Source of the DNA: Desulfonatronum sp.
Lineage (GTDB): Bacteria > Desulfobacterota > Desulfovibrionia > Desulfovibrionales > Desulfonatronaceae
NCBI GenBank assembly: GCA_011049455.1
Contig: DSBL01000114.1
Span: 1 to 32,379, forward strand
Direction: 5' to 3'
DNA length: 32,379 nucleotides
Part shown: piece by piece, positions 18,173-32,306 of the stretch
Numbering within the stretch: the first letter of the stretch is position 1
Layout: each line of letters begins with the position of its first letter
Notes under the pieces: generated by a model
What the model saw: the letters and a program-made list of their open reading frames with translations, nothing else
What the model was told of the DNA's origin: nothing
The model's database searches: none
Translations under genes and position numbers: made by a program

Positions 18173-18919
18173 TCAAGTGGGTGTCAGGGAGTTTTTTTGT
18201 GCAGGAATTCGTCCTTTTTCCGCCACATGGATCTGGACAATCCCCGCTGTAAGCGGAAAACTGTAAACTCTTGAAAAACCGGCCGCCAGCAGTTCCCGGG
18301 AAAGTGCCCGGGCATCGGGAAAGGCCTTGATAGTCTTGGCCAGATAGCGATAGGCGCGGGGGTCCCCGGAGAAGATCCGGCCAATCCACGGCAAAATTCG
18401 ACTCAGATAAACATTGTACATCCCACGCAGGATTTTTCGTCGACCAGCCCCAAACTCCAGAATACAGAAGCGCCCCCCCGGGGTCAGTACCCGGAGAACC
18501 TCCCGGTAGGCGTCATGACGGGGCAGAATGTTACGGATTCCAAAGGCAATGGTTGCACAGTCCACGCAATGGTCCGGCAAGGGGAGTGCACGACCGTCTG
18601 CCACCACGGGCACGATGGATGCCTGTTTAGTGGCCCTGATTTTTTTTTGGCCGTGCGCCAGCATGGGCAGGGAAAAGTCCAGTGCCAGCACACAGCAACA
18701 AGGGTGTTGCCTGACAACCTCCAGGGAAACATCCAGGGTGCCGGCAGCCAAGTCCAAGAGTCGGGTTGTACGATGCATCCGCACACAGCGGACAAGTTGT
18801 TTTCGCCATACAATATCCCAGCCCAGGCTCAGCAGGTGATTCAGAAAATCGTACCATGGGGCGATGCGACGAAAAAGCCCGGACACCTGCCTGCTGTGAT
18901 CATCTTGTTGGGTTATCAT
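18173..18919 (-). CDS. ubiE: Demethylmenaquinone methyltransferase
   Basis: 248 residues (also called menG). The enzyme uses S-adenosylmethionine to methylate demethylmenaquinone, the last step of menaquinone synthesis. Motif I for SAM binding reads LLDLAAGTLDVSLEV, with L in place of the usual second G. The family signatures IAFGIRNILPRHDAYREVLRVLTPGG and LEFGAG follow, and the entry FRRIAPWYDFLNHLLSLGWD is typical UbiE. The C-terminus ITAGIVQIHVAEK also matches, here read as LTAGIVQIHVAEK. The ATG at 18919 has only a weak site upstream. Its closeness to mqnB and mqnD makes this a menaquinone neighbourhood, although the genes are split by DUF2065 on the other strand. Confidence 0.92.
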   Translation of the reverse strand: MITQQDDHSRQVSGLFRRIAPWYDFLNHLLSLGWDIVWRKQLVRCVRMHRTTRLLDLAAGTLDVSLEVVRQHPCCCVLALDFSLPMLAHGQKKIRATKQASIVPVVADGRALPLPDHCVDCATIAFGIRNILPRHDAYREVLRVLTPGGRFCILEFGAGRRKILRGMYNVYLSRILPWIGRIFSGDPRAYRYLAKTIKAFPDARALSRELLAAGFSRVYSFPLTAGIVQIHVAEKGRIPAQKNSLTPT

Positions 18920-18975: not shown

Positions 18976-19170
18976 TTAACCCGAGGAGTCCGGTTTGCAA
19001 CCATTTTCCTGGATGTTTTTGTTTTCCTCCCATCGGATGGTTAGCAGCACCGCTTGGTAGATGTCCTTGAACAGGTCAGGAAAATTGGTCGGAGAAATAC
19101 GGTTGGTTTCAATGAATTTGACCACGATTTCCTTGGTCACCTGCAGGGCCTGCTTTTGGGTCTGATCCAC
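18976..19170 (-). CDS. Small protein resembling the N-terminus of MucR/Ros regulators
   Basis: 64 residues from a GTG start at 19170, preceded by GGAG with 8-base spacing; a TTG two codons earlier is less likely. The core (VTKEIVVKFIETNRISPTN, then FPDLFKDIYQAVL) resembles the helical oligomerisation part of MucR/Ros proteins (pattern: aEIV..Y...N.v....lp.Li..v...L). The C-terminal C2H2-type zinc finger that binds DNA in that family is absent, and only one cysteine is present near the end. No membrane segment is seen. It lies between the coiled-coil gene and ubiE, both on the same strand. Its ribosome-binding site begins shortly after a strong terminator-like hairpin (19189-19252). The function is unknown and the family link is a by-eye match. 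Confidence 0.6.
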   Translation of the reverse strand: MDQTQKQALQVTKEIVVKFIETNRISPTNFPDLFKDIYQAVLLTIRWEENKNIQENGCKPDSSG

Positions 19171-19358: not shown

Positions 19359-20612
19359 CTAGTCATTCTCCAGGGCCAAAGCCTGGATTTCTTCCCGGAT
19401 AACCTTGGCTGCCTCGCCGGGTATTGCCTTTTGCAGCTCCCGAAGCAAGTCGGTGCGCAACTGCTCAAAATGGACGGGCAAGGAGTCGGCGATGTTTTGG
19501 TTTTCGTTTTTCACTTGTTCCTGGAAAGAGCGCCATTCGGCCCGCATGTCTTGTGTTTCTTTTTGCAATGTCGCCTGGGCCCCCTTGAATTCTGCGAGCC
19601 TGTTTTTTTCTGTTTCCCATTCTGAATGCAAATTATCAATTGTGGGGCGCAAATGTTCCATGGTTTGTTCCCGCACCCCGGAGAGCAATTGATCCCGGGT
19701 TATTGGCTGTTCCAAGGCTTCATTTGTGGGTTGCAATTCCATGATCCGCGAATCCACCAGTGCGGTCACTTGAGCCGCCTGTGTTTCCAAAGCCTGCGCC
19801 AATGTCTCCTGATGGCGAAGGTCGGCTTCTTCTCCGGCGGTGCGCAACATTTGCTCCACCTGATCCTTCAGTTCGGATCGAATGCTCTGGTGCAGTGTCG
19901 CCAACTGTTGTTCTTGTTTGCCGGCGATCTCCTCCACAAGGTTTTCCAAGCGGGTTTCAAGACGATCGAAAAAAAGCTGTTCCAGATTTTCCATCTGCGT
20001 GATCTTTACTTCCATGGCTTCCAAGCGTTCCATAAAGGAGTCAGCCTGATCGGATTGCATGGGCGCAGGGGAAGCGGTTAATTCAGAAACGCTGTCTGGC
20101 GGGGCCGTCGACACACCTGACGCGTTCATGGGATGAGGTTCCAAGAGATCTGCGGTGTTTTCCTCGTTTTGGTTCAGGGTCTCTTCTTGTTCACTGGTCA
20201 TGGATGCGCTTTCAGAGTGTTCAAGCTCGGAAGGTTCCACGGAAGCCGTGTCTGGCAGCTGTTCCTGAGATGCCTGGATTTCTTCTTTTTGAACCTTGAC
20301 GTCTGAGTCCGGTGTGTCGAAAAGGTCCTTCATATCCAGGGAATCTTCAGCGGTTTTGTCAGGACGCTCAAATCCCTCGTCGGTGGAGGATGGAGCGCCG
20401 AGATCTGCGAAAATCTGATCGATTTCCTTTTCCAGGGCAATATCGTCCAGGGCTTCGTTTGCCTCTGGGGATGCGCTTTGCGGGGAAAGATTAGGGCGGT
20501 CCGGATGGCCTTCCTCAACTACATCGGTCAATTCGACGATTTCTTCCTTGGTGCTGGGCATGGCTTTTCCTTGGTCTGGGTTGGCCTCCGAAAGGGCATG
20601 ATCAAGGGACAT
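19359..20612 (-). CDS. Acidic coiled-coil protein of unknown function
   Basis: 417 residues, strongly acidic, with no signal peptide or membrane segment. Three zones are visible. An N-terminal disordered zone (1-205) is rich in E, D, S, P and Q and holds short conserved-looking motifs: KEEIVELTDVVEEG (22-35), KEIDQIFADLG (61-71) and MKDLFDTPD (93-101). A coiled-coil zone spans about 195-370, starting FMERLEAMEVKITQMENLEQ, then long runs of heptad-like L/E/Q/R. A C-terminal helical tip reads LRTDLLRELQKAIPGEAAKV then IREEIQAL. That tip loosely resembles the C-terminal oligomerisation region of the polar organiser PopZ, but this is only a pattern match. The ATG at 20612 has a weak ribosome-binding site and begins just 24 bases after a strong inverted repeat, leaving little room for a promoter unless it overlaps that repeat. 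Confidence 0.75.
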   Translation of the reverse strand: MSLDHALSEANPDQGKAMPSTKEEIVELTDVVEEGHPDRPNLSPQSASPEANEALDDIALEKEIDQIFADLGAPSSTDEGFERPDKTAEDSLDMKDLFDTPDSDVKVQKEEIQASQEQLPDTASVEPSELEHSESASMTSEQEETLNQNEENTADLLEPHPMNASGVSTAPPDSVSELTASPAPMQSDQADSFMERLEAMEVKITQMENLEQLFFDRLETRLENLVEEIAGKQEQQLATLHQSIRSELKDQVEQMLRTAGEEADLRHQETLAQALETQAAQVTALVDSRIMELQPTNEALEQPITRDQLLSGVREQTMEHLRPTIDNLHSEWETEKNRLAEFKGAQATLQKETQDMRAEWRSFQEQVKNENQNIADSLPVHFEQLRTDLLRELQKAIPGEAAKVIREEIQALALEND

Positions 20613-20635: not shown

Positions 20636-20687
20636 CACAAAAAACAAGAGGGACTGCGGGTACCCGCAATCCCTCTTGTTTTTTGTG
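20636..20687 (-). terminator. 52-base near-perfect inverted repeat, likely (bidirectional) terminator
   Basis: Outer arms of 18 bases match perfectly (20636-20653 and 20670-20687), one mismatch follows, then inner arms TGCGGG and CCCGCA around a TA centre. The A/T-rich outer ends supply a U-tract on either strand. It sits 11 bases after the cytochrome c3 stop and 24 bases before the next gene's start, so it should end the cytochrome transcript. Confidence 0.85.
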
Positions 20688-20698
20688 AACAAAAAAAA

Positions 20699-21100
20699 TT
20701 ATTCTTTGGGGTGACAGCCGGTGCAGGCAACAGGGCCAGTGGGTTTTTGTTCCTTCCGCAGGTCCCGATGGCACCCGATACACTGATCATGGAACGCCTT
20801 TTCCCAAAACTTGATGTCCTTGCGATCATCAGGCGTTGCGGCAACGTAAAGATCGTGGCAGCCGGCTGCGGTACAGGCCTGAATCTCACCAGCGCCGTCC
20901 CAGGTGTGATGGCACTCGGTGCATTCGTACTCGCCATGCTTGCTATGGGAGAACGGCAAGGATTTGTTCTTGATCTCCACGCCCTCTGGCTTCGGAATCA
21001 TGTAGTCATCTCCAGGGACGTCAACGGCGTAAAGATTCGGCAGCACAAATGCCAGGACCAGGGCCACAACGGTCAGCGACAGAATCATGGACTTCTTCAT
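20699..21100 (-). CDS. Periplasmic tetraheme cytochrome c3
   Basis: 133 residues. Cytochrome c3 carries electrons from periplasmic hydrogenases and formate dehydrogenases to membrane complexes in sulfate reducers. A Sec signal peptide is clear (KKSMILSLTVVALVLAFVLP, cleaved near LYA|VD). Four heme-attachment motifs are present: CTECH (60-64), CTAAGCH (76-82, the longer CxxxxCH spacing), CIGCH (107-111) and CTGCH (126-130). Candidate axial histidines are H52 and H55 in FSHSKH, H65 in CHH, and H104 in AFHDQ. The start ATG at 21100 has a near-perfect AGGAGGTGA ahead. A strong promoter lies upstream and a strong terminator downstream, so it is an independent, probably highly expressed unit. No hydrogenase gene is adjacent. 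Confidence 0.95.
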   Translation of the reverse strand: MKKSMILSLTVVALVLAFVLPNLYAVDVPGDDYMIPKPEGVEIKNKSLPFSHSKHGEYECTECHHTWDGAGEIQACTAAGCHDLYVAATPDDRKDIKFWEKAFHDQCIGCHRDLRKEQKPTGPVACTGCHPKE

Positions 21101-21149
21101 GGGTTTCACCTCCTTTTCTGTTTGTGTAAAAAAGCACATGGGTGGTTTC

Positions 21150-21177
21150 ATTATGGCAGGAGTTTTTGTGGTGTCAA
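21150..21177 (-). promoter_or_regulatory. Strong promoter for cytochrome c3
   Basis: On the minus strand a perfect TTGACA (complement of 21172-21177) and CATAAT (complement of 21150-21155) are 16 bases apart. The predicted transcript has a leader of about 40 bases that ends in the AGGAGGTGA ribosome-binding site of the cytochrome gene. Confidence 0.75.
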
Positions 21178-27180: not shown

Positions 27181-27204
27181 TAGTTTGGACGTGTGCAGGA
27201 TACA

Positions 27205-28344
27205 ATGACGCGTTTGACCATCGTGCATACCGAGGCTTCGGATGCCTGGGGCGGACAGGATATTCGCGTCTACAACGAAGCGCTCTGGTTTCTCAGGCAT
27301 GGACATCGTGTTTTTCTCTTTAACCCAGCACGAGGCCATATTTATCGACGCGCAAAAAGAGATGGTCTGGAGTGCACAGCGGTTTCCTTTTCCAGCAAGG
27401 CCAGGTTTCAAGACTTTGCACGCCTGGTCGTACGGTTGCATCACATCAAACCGGATATTCTTTGCACACACAGCAGCGTGGACAGCTGGGTCGGGCTGCT
27501 TGCAGCCAGATTCTGCAGGGTTCCGGTTTCGGTTCGTTACCGGCATGTCAGTACATCGGTTCAGGCCAACTTTATGAACCGGTGGCAGTATCAAAGCCTG
27601 TGCGACCATGTCGTGACCACGGCGAGCATGATTCGTCACGACCTGCGTAAAACATTTGTCCTTCCTGAAAACAAAGTCAGCATCGTCCCAACGGGCATCG
27701 ATTTCCCGGACATGCCTTCCAGAACTGAAGCGAAAAGACATTTGCTGCAGCGGCTGGGCCTGCCTTCAGACGCGTTGCTTGTGGGCCAAGTTTCCGTGCT
27801 GCGCAGCTGGAAGGGGCAGTATGTTTTGATCGATGCCTTTGAACGTCTTGCTTCCCAAATCCCTCAAAGTTATCTTTTGCTGGTCGGCGAAGGTCCGGTG
27901 CGCAATGATTATGCGCGGCGGATTCGAAGAAGCCCCGTGGCTCACCGGATGCTTCTGGTTGGGCATCAGGAGGATGTCTGGCCTTTTTTTCGGGGCATGG
28001 ACGTGGCGGTGCTCAGCAGTAGAAAAAATGAGGGCATTCCCCAGGTGGGTTTGCAGGCCATGTTTGCCGGATGTTCTTTCGTGGGAACCAACATCGGGGG
28101 GATTCCGGAGATCGTGTGCCACGAACAAACAGGGCTGTTGGCACGTCCCAGCGACCCGGACGACCTGGCCGCAGCGATCACCCGCCTGTTGTGGAATCCC
28201 GGATTCAGAAACCATCTGGCGGAGAATGCCCTGAACATGGTCAAGGATCACTATACATTGGACCACATGGGGCAAAAAATGGAATCCCTTTTTCAAAAGC
28301 TCGTGGCAGCAAAAAGAGCAGTCAAGGGTGGCAACAGTGAGTGA
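27205..28344 (+). CDS. Glycosyltransferase family 4 protein
   Basis: 379 residues, GT-B fold, cytoplasmic face of the inner membrane. The N-terminal acceptor domain begins MTRLTIVHTEASDAWGGQDI and has DILCTHSSVDSWVGLLAAR. The C-terminal nucleotide-sugar domain has VSIVPTGIDF, GQVSVLRSWKGQYVLIDAF, LLVGEGPVRNDY and SSRKNEGIPQVGLQAMFAG. In the usual E-x7-E donor motif the second glutamate is replaced by Q (EGIPQVGLQAM), a variation seen in some GT4 enzymes. The donor sugar is unknown. The ATG at 27205 with AGGA close by is preferred over a GTG at 27193. It opens the surface-glycan cluster. Confidence 0.9.
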   Translation: MTRLTIVHTEASDAWGGQDIRVYNEALWFLRHGHRVFLFNPARGHIYRRAKRDGLECTAVSFSSKARFQDFARLVVRLHHIKPDILCTHSSVDSWVGLLAARFCRVPVSVRYRHVSTSVQANFMNRWQYQSLCDHVVTTASMIRHDLRKTFVLPENKVSIVPTGIDFPDMPSRTEAKRHLLQRLGLPSDALLVGQVSVLRSWKGQYVLIDAFERLASQIPQSYLLLVGEGPVRNDYARRIRRSPVAHRMLLVGHQEDVWPFFRGMDVAVLSSRKNEGIPQVGLQAMFAGCSFVGTNIGGIPEIVCHEQTGLLARPSDPDDLAAAITRLLWNPGFRNHLAENALNMVKDHYTLDHMGQKMESLFQKLVAAKRAVKGGNSE

Positions 28345-28461
28345 CGGAAATATTTCTGAACAATGTCGGCTGCCGGACAAATCGCGCATCTGTGAGACAT
28401 TCCATACGCATTTTCGCACGTTGACGCGATAAACGCCGGCTCCGAAGACCTGACGGTTTTG

Positions 28462-29475
28462 ATGAAATTTCTGTTTATAAAATTAAAGCATATTGGTGAC
28501 TCATTGCTCTTGACTCCGGCTGTACATGCCGTGCGCCAAGCTTATCCGAATTCGGTGATCTGGGTGGTTGTACGCAAGGGATGTGAAGGTATTTTGGCTG
28601 GATGTTCGGACATTGATCAGGTTTTGACCGCAGCCGCCCCTGAGAAGGAGCGGCGCAGCCTGTGGAACTGGTGGACTGACTTGGTTTTGGCTGCGTCAAT
28701 TCGCCGGGAACATTTTGACTACGCCTTTGAACTGGGGGATGGAGATCGCGGCCGCTGGTTGACATTGCTATGCGGGGCCAGAAGGCGATGCGCCAATGCA
28801 GCGGGGAAACCCCTGCACTGGTGGTGGCGAAAAACATTCACCCACTTTTCCGATTTTTATTGGTACGCAAGCCACCAAGTGGAAAAAGATTTTTTCACGG
28901 TCAGCGATTGTTTGCCTTCTCCTTTCCCAGGCTCGCCGTCACGTTTGTGCTTTTCTCCCGAGCATACAGAAGAATGGCCGCAGACATCGTGTCTCAAGGA
29001 GTTTGCGGTTTTGCATCCGGGAACTCGTTGGGAGCGCAAACGCTGGCCTCAAGAGCGCTGGGAAGCTCTCTGCATCCAATTGCTGGAACGCTTGCCATCC
29101 ATTGTGATCAGTGCGGGGCCGGATCTCGGGGAAGTTTGTTTGGCTGAAAAACTTCGTGCAATTGATCCAAAGCGGATATTAAGCACTTCTGGTCGGGCGT
29201 CCTGGGCTCAACTGGCAGGCTTGCTTTACAAAGCCAAGTTGTTCGTGGGTGTAGACACTGCGGCCATGCACATGGCCGCGGCTTGTTCCTGTCCGGTCGT
29301 GGCTCTGTTCATGGGATCAAGCCCGGTGGAATGGGCGCCGTGGAAATCGCGTCACGTGGTGGTTCAGCCTGAAGCAAAAGGCGAGGCTGCCGAGGGAAGG
29401 CCTGCCGGGAGGATTTCCGTAGAGCATGTGGTGCAAGCCTGTGACACCATGCTTGGGAGGTTGCCAGGGCCATGA
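28462..29475 (+). CDS. Glycosyltransferase family 9 (heptosyltransferase-like)
   Basis: 337 residues. GT9 enzymes transfer heptose from ADP-heptose in lipopolysaccharide core synthesis (WaaC, WaaF, WaaQ). The N-terminus FLFIKLKHIGDSLLLTPAVHAVRQAYP is the classic GT9 start, and WVVVRKGCEGIL follows. The C-terminal donor site has VLHPGTRWERKRWPQERWEAL, FVGVDTAAMHMAAACSCPVVALFMGSSP and EWAPW. It looks nearest to the WaaQ-like branch but the exact acceptor is not inferable. The ATG at 28462 is taken; a TTG one codon earlier adds nothing. The stop overlaps the start of the next gene as ATGA (29472-29475), so they are translationally coupled. A 117-base gap separates it from the upstream GT4 gene. 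Confidence 0.92.
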   Translation: MKFLFIKLKHIGDSLLLTPAVHAVRQAYPNSVIWVVVRKGCEGILAGCSDIDQVLTAAAPEKERRSLWNWWTDLVLAASIRREHFDYAFELGDGDRGRWLTLLCGARRRCANAAGKPLHWWWRKTFTHFSDFYWYASHQVEKDFFTVSDCLPSPFPGSPSRLCFSPEHTEEWPQTSCLKEFAVLHPGTRWERKRWPQERWEALCIQLLERLPSIVISAGPDLGEVCLAEKLRAIDPKRILSTSGRASWAQLAGLLYKAKLFVGVDTAAMHMAAACSCPVVALFMGSSPVEWAPWKSRHVVVQPEAKGEAAEGRPAGRISVEHVVQACDTMLGRLPGP

Positions 29476-30626
29476 GGAACCTTTTTTTTGTCGTCAACCA
29501 GGACCTTGGCGACGGCTCGGCTCATGCCCTGTATTGCCTGCGGCATTGTTGGTGGCTGGCTAAGACAAACAGCCAAGCCATGGTTCATTTGATCCATTCC
29601 GGACGCTTAGCGGAAAGGGAGGCCCTGGGCGCGGCGGGACTTGTTTCGGCGGCCAACCTGCGGGTGCGGTCCCTGCCCAGTATCCGCAAGCCGCGCGATG
29701 GCCGGGGCGTGACCATCAACGCCGTGTTTTTCTGGGCCATGGTGTTGGATCTGCGCAAACAGCAACATCCGGGCGACATCCTGGCCTGCGCCAGTTTTCC
29801 CAAGCTCTTTCAGTTTCTTTGTCGACGCAAGGGCCTTCTGCGGGACATGCGCACCGTGTACGAAGTCCATCAGCTTGCGGCCTTGGAACATGGGCCCCAG
29901 GCCCGGCAAACCGCAGTGGAGCGCGAGGTTCTGGAGTGCGCTGATGTGGTCGTGACCACGACGAACGCCTTGCTGGACCAGGTGCGTGCGTCTTTTCCGG
30001 GCAAACCGACGGCCGCCCTGGGGTTGGCCTGCGGTTTTGATCCGAGGGCCGCGCCCGAGCGAAGCGGGACCTCCGGAGAGCCGTTCACGCTGGCCTATGT
30101 CGGCTCGCTCTATGAGGAACAGGGAGTGCGCTGGCTGCTTGCATCCTGGCCGGAAATCGTCGCTACGGCGGGTCGCCCGTTAAAGCTTGTGGTCATCGGC
30201 GGCCCGGCCTCGGCCTGCGAACGATTGCGGGTTGAATACGGAGCGTCTGACAACACGATGGAACTGCGCGGGCCGATACCGCCGGGGCGATTGCCCGAGC
30301 AATTGCGCAGGGTGGACGCCCTGGTCATCCCGGCCCTGAAGATGGGTCGCATGCCTTACGTGGCCATCACCAAGGCCTATGACTACCTGGGTTTGAACCG
30401 GTCCATCGTGGCTGCGGATCTGCCCTCCATTCGAGAGGTGCTGCGGCCTGGTCAGGAGGCCCTGCTTTTTGCTCCGGGCGATTGTCGGGATCTGGCCGCG
30501 TGCATCCGAACCCTTGTCGACGACGCCGACCTTGTTTTTGCGTTGACATCCCGGGCACGTGAGCGCTGCGCAACCCTTTCCTGGACACAGCGGGCCAAAC
30601 GCTGGTGGGAGGCGGTTCAGCCTTGA
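29472..30626 (+). CDS. Glycosyltransferase family 4-like protein
   Basis: 384 residues, GT-B fold. The N-terminal half is divergent (LGDGSAHALYCLRHCWWLAK, then ILACASFPKLFQFLCRRKGL and RTVYEVHQLAALE). The C-terminal half carries the GT4 donor elements: ACGFDPRAAP, TLAYVGSLYEEQGVRWLLAS, LVVIGGPASACERL, ALVIPALKMGRMPYVAITKAYDYL and a final LVDDADLVFALTSRARERC. The usual E-x7-E is replaced by the region around KAYDYLGLNRSIVA, so donor binding may differ. The substrate is unknown. The start ATG overlaps the GT9 stop by 4 bases with GGAGG upstream, and the end overlaps the TTG start of the GT2 gene. It reads as more GC-rich than the GT9 gene before it. Confidence 0.88.
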   Translation: MRNLFFVVNQDLGDGSAHALYCLRHCWWLAKTNSQAMVHLIHSGRLAEREALGAAGLVSAANLRVRSLPSIRKPRDGRGVTINAVFFWAMVLDLRKQQHPGDILACASFPKLFQFLCRRKGLLRDMRTVYEVHQLAALEHGPQARQTAVEREVLECADVVVTTTNALLDQVRASFPGKPTAALGLACGFDPRAAPERSGTSGEPFTLAYVGSLYEEQGVRWLLASWPEIVATAGRPLKLVVIGGPASACERLRVEYGASDNTMELRGPIPPGRLPEQLRRVDALVIPALKMGRMPYVAITKAYDYLGLNRSIVAADLPSIREVLRPGQEALLFAPGDCRDLAACIRTLVDDADLVFALTSRARERCATLSWTQRAKRWWEAVQP

Positions 30627-31468
30627 AAATATCCATTGTCACCCCGACCTGGAATAGGGCCGACATGCTTCGGTTCTGTCTGGATAGCGTAAAATCCCAG
30701 AATACATCGCCGCACGAGCACATCATCGTTGACAACATGTCCACGGATGACACGACCAACGTGGTCCAGGGCTATGCGCGGTCCGTGTCCTATCCTGTGC
30801 ATCATGTCCGCGAGAAGGACAACGGTATTTATCAGGCCATGAACAAGGGGATGCGACGGGTTTCTGGAGATGCCCTGCATTTTCTCAACGACGACGACAT
30901 GCTCTGCGACGACAAGGTGCTCCAAGTCATGGGACGATGCCTGGCGCATTACCAAGTGGACATTGCCTTTGGCGACGTGATCCTGCTTAGCGGCGACCCA
31001 TTGGCCCATAACTATCGCCGGCACCGGCAGGTCAACCGACTGACTTTGGTGGAACGGACCATTACCCAACAAGCTGTGTTCTACCAACGTTCAGTATTTG
31101 ACCTCTGCGGCCTGTTCGACGCACACCTGCACATCGCCGCGGATCATGAATGGCTGTTGCGAGCCTTTTTGCGCCACGATATCCACGCAGCGTATATCAA
31201 GTATCCGGTGGCCTTGTTCCGCACGGGCGGGGTTTCCAATGACATGCAGACCAGAGAAGCGCATCGCCTGGAGCGGGAAAGGATCACCGCCACGTATTTC
31301 ACCAAGCGGGAGATCAGGGCGGCTAAGCTGTATCGAAGGCTTTTCCGCAAGATTCCGTTCGGGGCCACGATGCTTGGGCTGTTTGTTCCCCTGAGACTGC
31401 ACGTCAAGAACCTCAAAGTGCGCAAAAAAGGTTTTTCAACCGATCCCATGGCCTGGGTCGACCTGTGA
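30623..31468 (+). CDS. Glycosyltransferase family 2 protein
   Basis: 281 residues, GT-A fold (WcaA/colanic-acid-type GT2). The N-terminus KISIVTPTWNRADMLRFCLDSV is the standard start. The pattern DNGIYQAMNKGMRRVSGDALHFLNDDDML gives the metal-binding acidic triplet (DDD, about residue 92-94). HIAADHEWLLRAFLRHD contains the conserved D-x-E/W region of the active site. I chose the TTG at 30623, which overlaps the previous TGA as TTGA and has GGGAGG 10 bases upstream. A GTG at 30605 would add six unsupported residues. A basic, mildly hydrophobic C-terminal end (ATMLGLFVPLRLHVKNLKVR) may touch the membrane. The sugar is unknown. Confidence 0.9.
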   Translation: MKISIVTPTWNRADMLRFCLDSVKSQNTSPHEHIIVDNMSTDDTTNVVQGYARSVSYPVHHVREKDNGIYQAMNKGMRRVSGDALHFLNDDDMLCDDKVLQVMGRCLAHYQVDIAFGDVILLSGDPLAHNYRRHRQVNRLTLVERTITQQAVFYQRSVFDLCGLFDAHLHIAADHEWLLRAFLRHDIHAAYIKYPVALFRTGGVSNDMQTREAHRLERERITATYFTKREIRAAKLYRRLFRKIPFGATMLGLFVPLRLHVKNLKVRKKGFSTDPMAWVDL

Positions 31469-31499
31469 GTCTTGTCATCAAAACGGCATTGTCGAACAC

Positions 31500-32306
31500 A
31501 TGTTATCGAAAATCCGCAAGAAGTATGAAAAATTCATCCGCAAGCGGATGGACGCCAGGATCCCCGCGTATCTTGGTCTGACTCCCCGGACTGAGGTGTC
31601 AGATCAGGACGTGTTCATCGTCGGGTATCCCAAGTCCGGCAACACCTGGTTTCAAAACATTATCGCGGGCATGGTGTTCGGCGTGGACCCGGAACTTGCT
31701 CCGGACGCCCTGATCCAGGAAATCGTCCCGGACGTGCACCGCAAGAAGTTCTACAAGCGAATTCGCGAACAAATGTTCTTCAAAAGCCATCACCTGCCCC
31801 GGCCGGAATACAGGAAGGTAATCTATTTGCTGCGCGACGGCCGGGACGTGATGGTTTCCTATTATCATTATAACAAGGCGATTTACGGCGACAGTGCAAA
31901 CATGGACTTGATGATCGAAACCGGACAGTTTCTTTTTCCGTGCCTCTGGCATGAACATGTTCGGCAATGGCGGCAAAACGCCCATGGCGCGGATATGATC
32001 ACCGTGAAATATGAAGATCTGCTGCATGATCCATTGCCGGAATTGGAAAAGGTCTGTCGGTTCGCCGGGCTTGTGCGAAGCCTGGCAGCATTGCGGACAG
32101 TGTACGAAAAATGTTCGTTTACGACGCTGCGGCGCAAGGAACAGGCAGTTGGTCTGGACGATCCGACCTGGCCGCGGGACAAGGCGTTTTTCCGCAGGGG
32201 CAAGCAAGGCAGTTACAAGGACGAAATGTCTTCCCAGTCCCTGCAAAAATTTTTGGCCGTGGCCGGCAAGACCTTGCGCCAATGCGGTTATAGAGACGAG
32301 GCCTGA
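31500..32306 (+). CDS. Sulfotransferase (PAPS-dependent, Sulfotransfer_1 type)
   Basis: 268 residues, with no signal peptide or membrane helix. It should transfer sulfate from 3'-phosphoadenylyl sulfate (PAPS) to an alcohol or amine of a glycan or lipid. The 5'-phosphosulfate loop is PKSGNTW (44-50). The likely catalytic histidine is in KSHHLP (H97/H98). The 3'-phosphate site is VIYLLRDGRDVMVSYYHYNK with R112 and S120. The C-terminal PAPS loop is RRGKQGSYKDEM (about 230-241), matching the RKGxxGDWK motif. All three cofactor motifs look intact. It lies 31 bases after the GT2 gene, so it is probably part of the same glycan operon. The Shine-Dalgarno is weak. Its 3' end may overlap a converging gene on the other strand. 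Confidence 0.92.
   Translation: MLSKIRKKYEKFIRKRMDARIPAYLGLTPRTEVSDQDVFIVGYPKSGNTWFQNIIAGMVFGVDPELAPDALIQEIVPDVHRKKFYKRIREQMFFKSHHLPRPEYRKVIYLLRDGRDVMVSYYHYNKAIYGDSANMDLMIETGQFLFPCLWHEHVRQWRQNAHGADMITVKYEDLLHDPLPELEKVCRFAGLVRSLAALRTVYEKCSFTTLRRKEQAVGLDDPTWPRDKAFFRRGKQGSYKDEMSSQSLQKFLAVAGKTLRQCGYRDEA

Follow-up and report, generated by a model that had tools for sequence, protein, structure and literature searches.

The gene and its surroundings

The window, by which we mean the whole 32,379-nucleotide stretch of Desulfonatronum DNA that was analyzed, carries on its reverse strand a gene for an acidic, coiled-coil protein, located between the genes for a class III cytochrome c3 and a UbiE/MenG methyltransferase (Table 1). 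The reading frame was confirmed as real, and it reads as described in the first-pass annotation. It is under selection because orthologues are found across the genus and the order (here, ‘order’ and ‘phylum’ are the groups assigned in the genome collection searched). The start of the gene is probably the ATG at 20561, because orthologues begin at Met18 of the listed frame, with AAGGA just upstream. Neither the protein nor its C-terminal tip had a relevant match above chance in Pfam, NCBIfam, or the PDB.

Table 1. Features of the putative scaffold gene, its product, and its conserved neighbors (window coordinates; residues counted from the ATG at 20561).
Feature	Position	Strand	Basis
Putative PopZ-like scaffold CDS, likeliest true start, 400 aa	19359..20561	-	Met18 invariant column in orthologue alignment; AAGGA
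Listed ORF, upstream ATG at 20612, 417 aa	19359..20612	-	ORF list
Ribosome-binding-site-like AAGGAA before the ATG at 20561	20567..20572	-	direct sequence reading
ELTD box EEIVELTDVVEEG, residues 6–18, common to PopZ	20508..20546	-	orthologue alignment, motif search
Conserved amphipathic motif LEKEIDQIFADL, residues 43–54, within predicted helix 32–55	20400..20435	-	
Repeat of the LF motif, SLDMKDLFD, residues 74–82	20316..20342	-	
Acidic, mostly disordered N-terminal region, residues 1–168	20058..20561	-	composition, AlphaFold model
Long helical coiled-coil region, residues 170–379, length varying among orthologues	19425..20054	-	AlphaFold model
C-terminal tip, residues 360–400, helix/Pro turn/helix, aligning with PopZ H3–H4	19362..19484	-	profile comparison
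Class III cytochrome c3, conserved neighbor	20699..21151	-	
UbiE/MenG methyltransferase, conserved neighbor	18173..18919	-	

Orthologues are present in all eight genomes of the genus, and a family profile search found members in 198 of 297 genomes, covering 50 of the 55 genera of the order. Wherever both flanks were readable, the gene sits between a cytochrome c3 (or cobJ) gene and ubiE, within a neighborhood, hemL-(cbiG-cobJ)-cytochrome c3-X-ubiE-mqnB/mqnA (X being the gene studied here), that is preserved across the order.

Downstream of the cytochrome c3 gene, direct reading revealed a near-perfect palindrome with a T-run (AAAAAACAAGAGGGA..GCGGGTACCCGC..TCCCTCTTGTTTTTT; positions 20638–20686), which a scan did not list. 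It is probably the terminator of the cytochrome gene and leaves little space for a separate promoter ahead of the putative scaffold gene. On the other side, a small frame of 64 residues with a GTG start (positions 18976–19170, reverse strand; VDQTQKQALQVTKEIVVKFIETNRISPTNFPDLFKDIYQAVLLTIRW...) separates the gene from ubiE. It is about 42–83% identical across some 38 loci of the order, and its product has what we take to be a vague likeness to the N-terminus of MucR. The bacterium resembles a sulfate reducer, and its gene content, which includes cytochrome c3, tig-clpP-clpX-lon, mqnA/mqnB, cobJ, cbiG, and hemL, suggests that it belongs to the Desulfovibrionales. Further along the window (positions 27193–32306, forward strand), the translations of a run of reading frames resemble glycosyltransferases and a sulfotransferase; the run is probably a cluster for surface polysaccharide.

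Protein layout and conserved motifs

The first-pass annotation had proposed an acidic, disordered N-terminus followed by a long coiled coil and a short helical tip, a layout borne out by composition and by an AlphaFold model. Residues 1–165 are 26% acidic, with a net charge of -0.21 per residue, and the single-sequence model is disordered over residues 1–168, except for a helix at 32–55, and helical over residues 170–379 and 383–399. Family members range from about 258 to 1350 amino acids, and only three parts are constant: an N-terminal box (EEIIELTDVVEEG), an [FL]xxE[LI]xx[LI]F motif, and the tip LRxELxxEIxKAVPxAAARIIREEIxAL. All three short motifs singled out in the first-pass annotation are strongly conserved in orthologues, counter to the loss that it had named as a refutation, and so is the tip, whose columns P, A, A, I, R, E, and I are invariant.

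The N-terminal box follows the pattern [DE]-E-I-I-[ED]-L-T-[DE]-V-V-E-E-G. Of 70 family members, 52 have its strict ELTD form, and variants such as IIDLSE, ILELSE, or FELTE are seen in most of the remaining 18. Two genomes of the collection carry repeated boxes, three at 90-base spacing in one (G095:C2:84717-84922) and two at 30-base spacing in the other (G055:C2:76085-76140), which suggests a multivalent candidate docking motif. The LF/IF-type motifs are more frequent than chance: across 70 orthologues, which are not independent of each other, the N-terminal 60% contains 73 instances of the [LIF]xx[DE][LIF][DE]x[LIF][FL] type, versus a mean of 1.8 and a maximum of 6 in shuffles. Docking of the beta-clamp or FliM type is one conceivable role for these motifs.

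The ELTD box in PopZ and across genomes

PopZ sequences were taken from Caulobacterales records and, with the DUF2497 profile, from the class as a whole. Many have the same box in the acidic region (for instance, EEEIVELTDVVEDE, compared with KEEIVELTDVVEEG in the Desulfonatronum protein). It is present in 63 of 109 PopZ sequences, and it is not a published criterion for PopZ. With a DNA pattern for the box that was fixed after PopZ had been seen, its fourth position being relaxed to admit PopZ, a scan of 76 alphaproteobacterial genomes gave 12 matches, ten of them inside popZ. Within Alphaproteobacteria, the box is thus nearly exclusive to popZ. Across 398 genomes of the Caulobacter phylum, the pattern matched 14 times, four times in popZ and otherwise in unrelated or antisense frames.

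In the order of the Desulfonatronum protein, the pattern matched in 78 of 120 genomes, as a rule once per genome, and all 30 matches whose locus was retrieved looked like members of the same family, many of these loci ending before the C-terminus. The scan of 395 genomes of the phylum added 38 matches outside the order. Twenty of these lie in acidic proteins that have a PopZ-like tip and whose genes stand immediately upstream of valS; the rest, where followed, were mostly chance hits in unrelated or antisense frames.

Relatives linked to valS

The valS-linked PopZ-like proteins are described here and are so far without a name. They were seen in 20 genomes, which belong to at least seven other families within the phylum, and the downstream gene was identified as a valine-tRNA ligase by TIGR00422 in all four cases tested. 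In Alphaproteobacteria, valS lies directly downstream of popZ in 105 of 112 loci, an adjacency already reported for Caulobacter and Magnetospirillum (PMC6414705). In a genome of the Desulfonatronum order (1.7 Mb), valS was not met in the roughly 0.7 Mb read. The tips of the valS-linked proteins, such as LPGIVEKVIREEIEKLKKL, are intermediate between LPxIVERLVREEIERL of PopZ and VPxAAARIIREEIxAL of the family. Some of these proteins also have weak matches, below cut-offs, to DUF2497 (E-values of 0.033, 0.12, and 0.72) and to PopZ_fam (E = 0.31).

Six of the loci (L335, L336, L382, L333, L334, and L381) encode an N-terminal receiver domain, matching PF00072 with an E-value of 1.9e-20 in L382. In Caulobacter, the response regulator CpdR is a partner with which PopZ interacts (PMC11519897). 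Tip-like matches (E = 0.002) were also seen in 420-residue frames of one other genus of the phylum (L243, L244, and L245, from G450, G379, and G415), which have no ELTD match.

Comparison of the C-terminal tips

Profiles of the tips were compared with hhalign. The family aligned to the valS-linked proteins with a score of 36.9 (P = 5.8e-9), and the valS-linked proteins aligned to PopZ with a score of 30.3 (P = 4.2e-7), neither alignment having gaps in the reported range. Both scores lie far above the controls: no natural window among 434 passed 16.8, upstream windows taken from the family itself reached 16.9 at best, column permutations peaked at 21.6, and reversed profiles scored 9–11. The direct comparison of the family with PopZ gave a score of 18.2 (P = 6.4e-4) over a tip of about 40 residues, equalled by one of 300 permutations, and this comparison, taken alone, is weak. 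All three alignments share one register.

A DUF2497/PopZ profile search, suggested as a check in the first-pass annotation, returned no direct match: the protein matched neither PF10691 (DUF2497) nor NF052660, both of which did match popZ controls. Over 150 genomes of the order, PF10691 produced weak matches only, the best of them in other genes. In the reverse direction, the family tip profile searched over alphaproteobacterial genomes yielded a single popZ match, with an E-value of 0.14, among others due to chance; over the phylum, it gave few matches beyond the order, and the one in G442 fell in a gene that the ELTD search later picked up as well. The AlphaFold models, monomers only and one of them built without an alignment, disagree at the turn, with PopZ forming a continuous helix over residues 133–171 and the Desulfonatronum tip being broken at IPG.

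A probable divergent relative of PopZ

Taken together, we think that the gene very probably encodes a distant homologue of PopZ. Its assignment to a PopZ superfamily follows from the ELTD box and the tip, which are common to PopZ and to the valS-linked proteins of the phylum. The first-pass annotation had likened the protein to PopZ by its design and not by clear sequence; its idea of a PopZ-like scaffold holds up, and its restriction to design does not, given the ELTD box, the tip connected through intermediates, and the valS synteny of those intermediates. Our overall reading, which we consider likely, is a divergent PopZ-superfamily scaffold forming a cytoplasmic hub, most likely polar.

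The protein probably self-associates and recruits clients. Self-association of the tip, which corresponds to PopZ H3–H4, is expected because it is homologous to the oligomerizing helices of PopZ; the tip and the coiled coil would together drive assembly, the coiled coil (residues 170–379) adding valency or length. The acidic region may maintain the fluidity of the assembly. As candidate docking sites, the ELTD box and the repeated LF/IF motifs would recruit client proteins. The protein may thereby act as a cytoplasmic hub whose most likely seat is the cell pole, although for the polar location itself we put the chances at about even.

An unrelated coiled-coil scaffold could instead have converged on the PopZ design. 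In that case, the ELTD box would be a short linear motif of wide occurrence, and the likeness of the tips would come from helical composition. The weak direct tip comparison (P = 6.4e-4, with one in 300 permutations equal), the lack of a PopZ H1 box, and the lack of a DUF2497 match speak for convergence. Yet within Alphaproteobacteria the box hardly occurs outside popZ (10/12 matches lie in that gene), valS-linked intermediates connect the two profiles above all controls, and two independent ends of the protein match PopZ with their order kept, all of which make convergence rather unlikely. The preserved gene order, from hemL to mqnB/mqnA, is what would suggest a cytoplasmic factor with an organizing or regulatory role in the synthesis of cytochrome c3, tetrapyrroles, or menaquinone, its PopZ-like parts only clustering those enzymes locally. 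Gene order by itself is, however, no proof of a functional link. Class III cytochromes c3 are periplasmic, whereas the protein has no signal-peptide-like start by direct reading; between the two genes lies a strong palindrome with a T-run, and homologues elsewhere adjoin valS, not cytochrome c3 or ubiE genes. We regard such a neighbor-linked role as improbable.

The receiver-domain fusions among the valS-linked relatives, and the build of RomR, which combines a receiver with an unstructured linker and a helical, Glu-rich tip (PMC3441718), bring to mind a hub for motility or polarity comparable to RomR or HubP/FimV, in which the LF motif would be an acidic docking peptide and kinship with PopZ would lie in layout only. 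Profile searches found no receiver, LysM, or TPR domain in the protein, and we hold this reading to be very improbable.

A PopZ-superfamily scaffold remains our preferred reading, and it can be extended, with about equal chances of being right or wrong, to an evolutionary proposal. PopZ would be part of an old valS-linked superfamily present both in Alphaproteobacteria and in the phylum studied here. An ELTD box at the N-terminus and a helix-turn-helix at the C-terminus would define it, and some receiver-bearing members may shade into RomR. In the order, the gene would have been relocated next to cytochrome c3 and have acquired a coiled coil, and ELTD, not the alphaproteobacterial H1 helix, would be the ancestral client-docking site.

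PopZ, which builds the organizing center at the Caulobacter cell pole and binds ParA/ParB among other clients, is the model bacterial polar condensate. The literature has placed it in Alphaproteobacteria only (PMC5703909), which is why a homologue in a second phylum would matter. Among open-licence papers, no homologue appears in the titles or abstracts on PopZ with Desulfovibrio, deltaproteobacteria, or Geobacter. A homologue bearing the ELTD box would be a candidate gene for polar organization in that phylum, and in PopZ, too, the shared box is a conserved candidate docking site. The natural variants (without H1, with a coiled-coil spacer, or with receiver fusions) allow tests of each part of a condensate scaffold.

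Comparison with known systems

DivIVA and bactofilins are self-assembling polar scaffolds (PMC5703909), and the protein has no Pfam match to either. RomR of Myxococcus xanthus, polar and carrying an invariant Trp and Pro in its tip (PMC3441718), was compared by its published description. By that description, its unstructured linker and Glu-rich helical C-terminus are like those of the receiver-fused valS-linked proteins; unlike RomR, the Desulfonatronum protein has no receiver domain. The valS-linked proteins share with it the ELTD box, an acidic region, and a homologous tip (hhalign P = 5.8e-9), but they are encoded upstream of valS, are mostly shorter (about 140–520 amino acids), and in some cases carry a receiver domain.

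The closest comparison is with PopZ, which consists of an N-region, an acidic disordered region, and a helical oligomerization domain whose last helix-turn-helix is highly conserved; in Caulobacter, the C-terminal helices oligomerize the protein, and the acidic disordered region tunes fluidity (PMC9512792). The Desulfonatronum protein likewise has an ELTD box in an acidic N-terminal region, an acidic disordered linker, and a C-terminal helix-Pro-helix tip in the same register, and the popZ locus shares with the phylum relatives its place directly upstream of valS. By contrast, the PopZ H1 box, (M)EEILASIRRII, is present in 107 of 109 PopZ sequences and in none of 70 family members, and proline makes up 9% of the acidic region versus 23% in PopZ (the latter value from PMC9512792). 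The tip reads AAARIIREEI in the family and WLDxxLPxIVERxVxxEI in PopZ, a long coiled coil is inserted, and the gene adjoins cytochrome c3 and ubiE instead of valS. Because it is without H1, without valS beside it, poor in proline, and missed by PopZ models, the protein is best viewed as a divergent member of the superfamily and not as PopZ itself.
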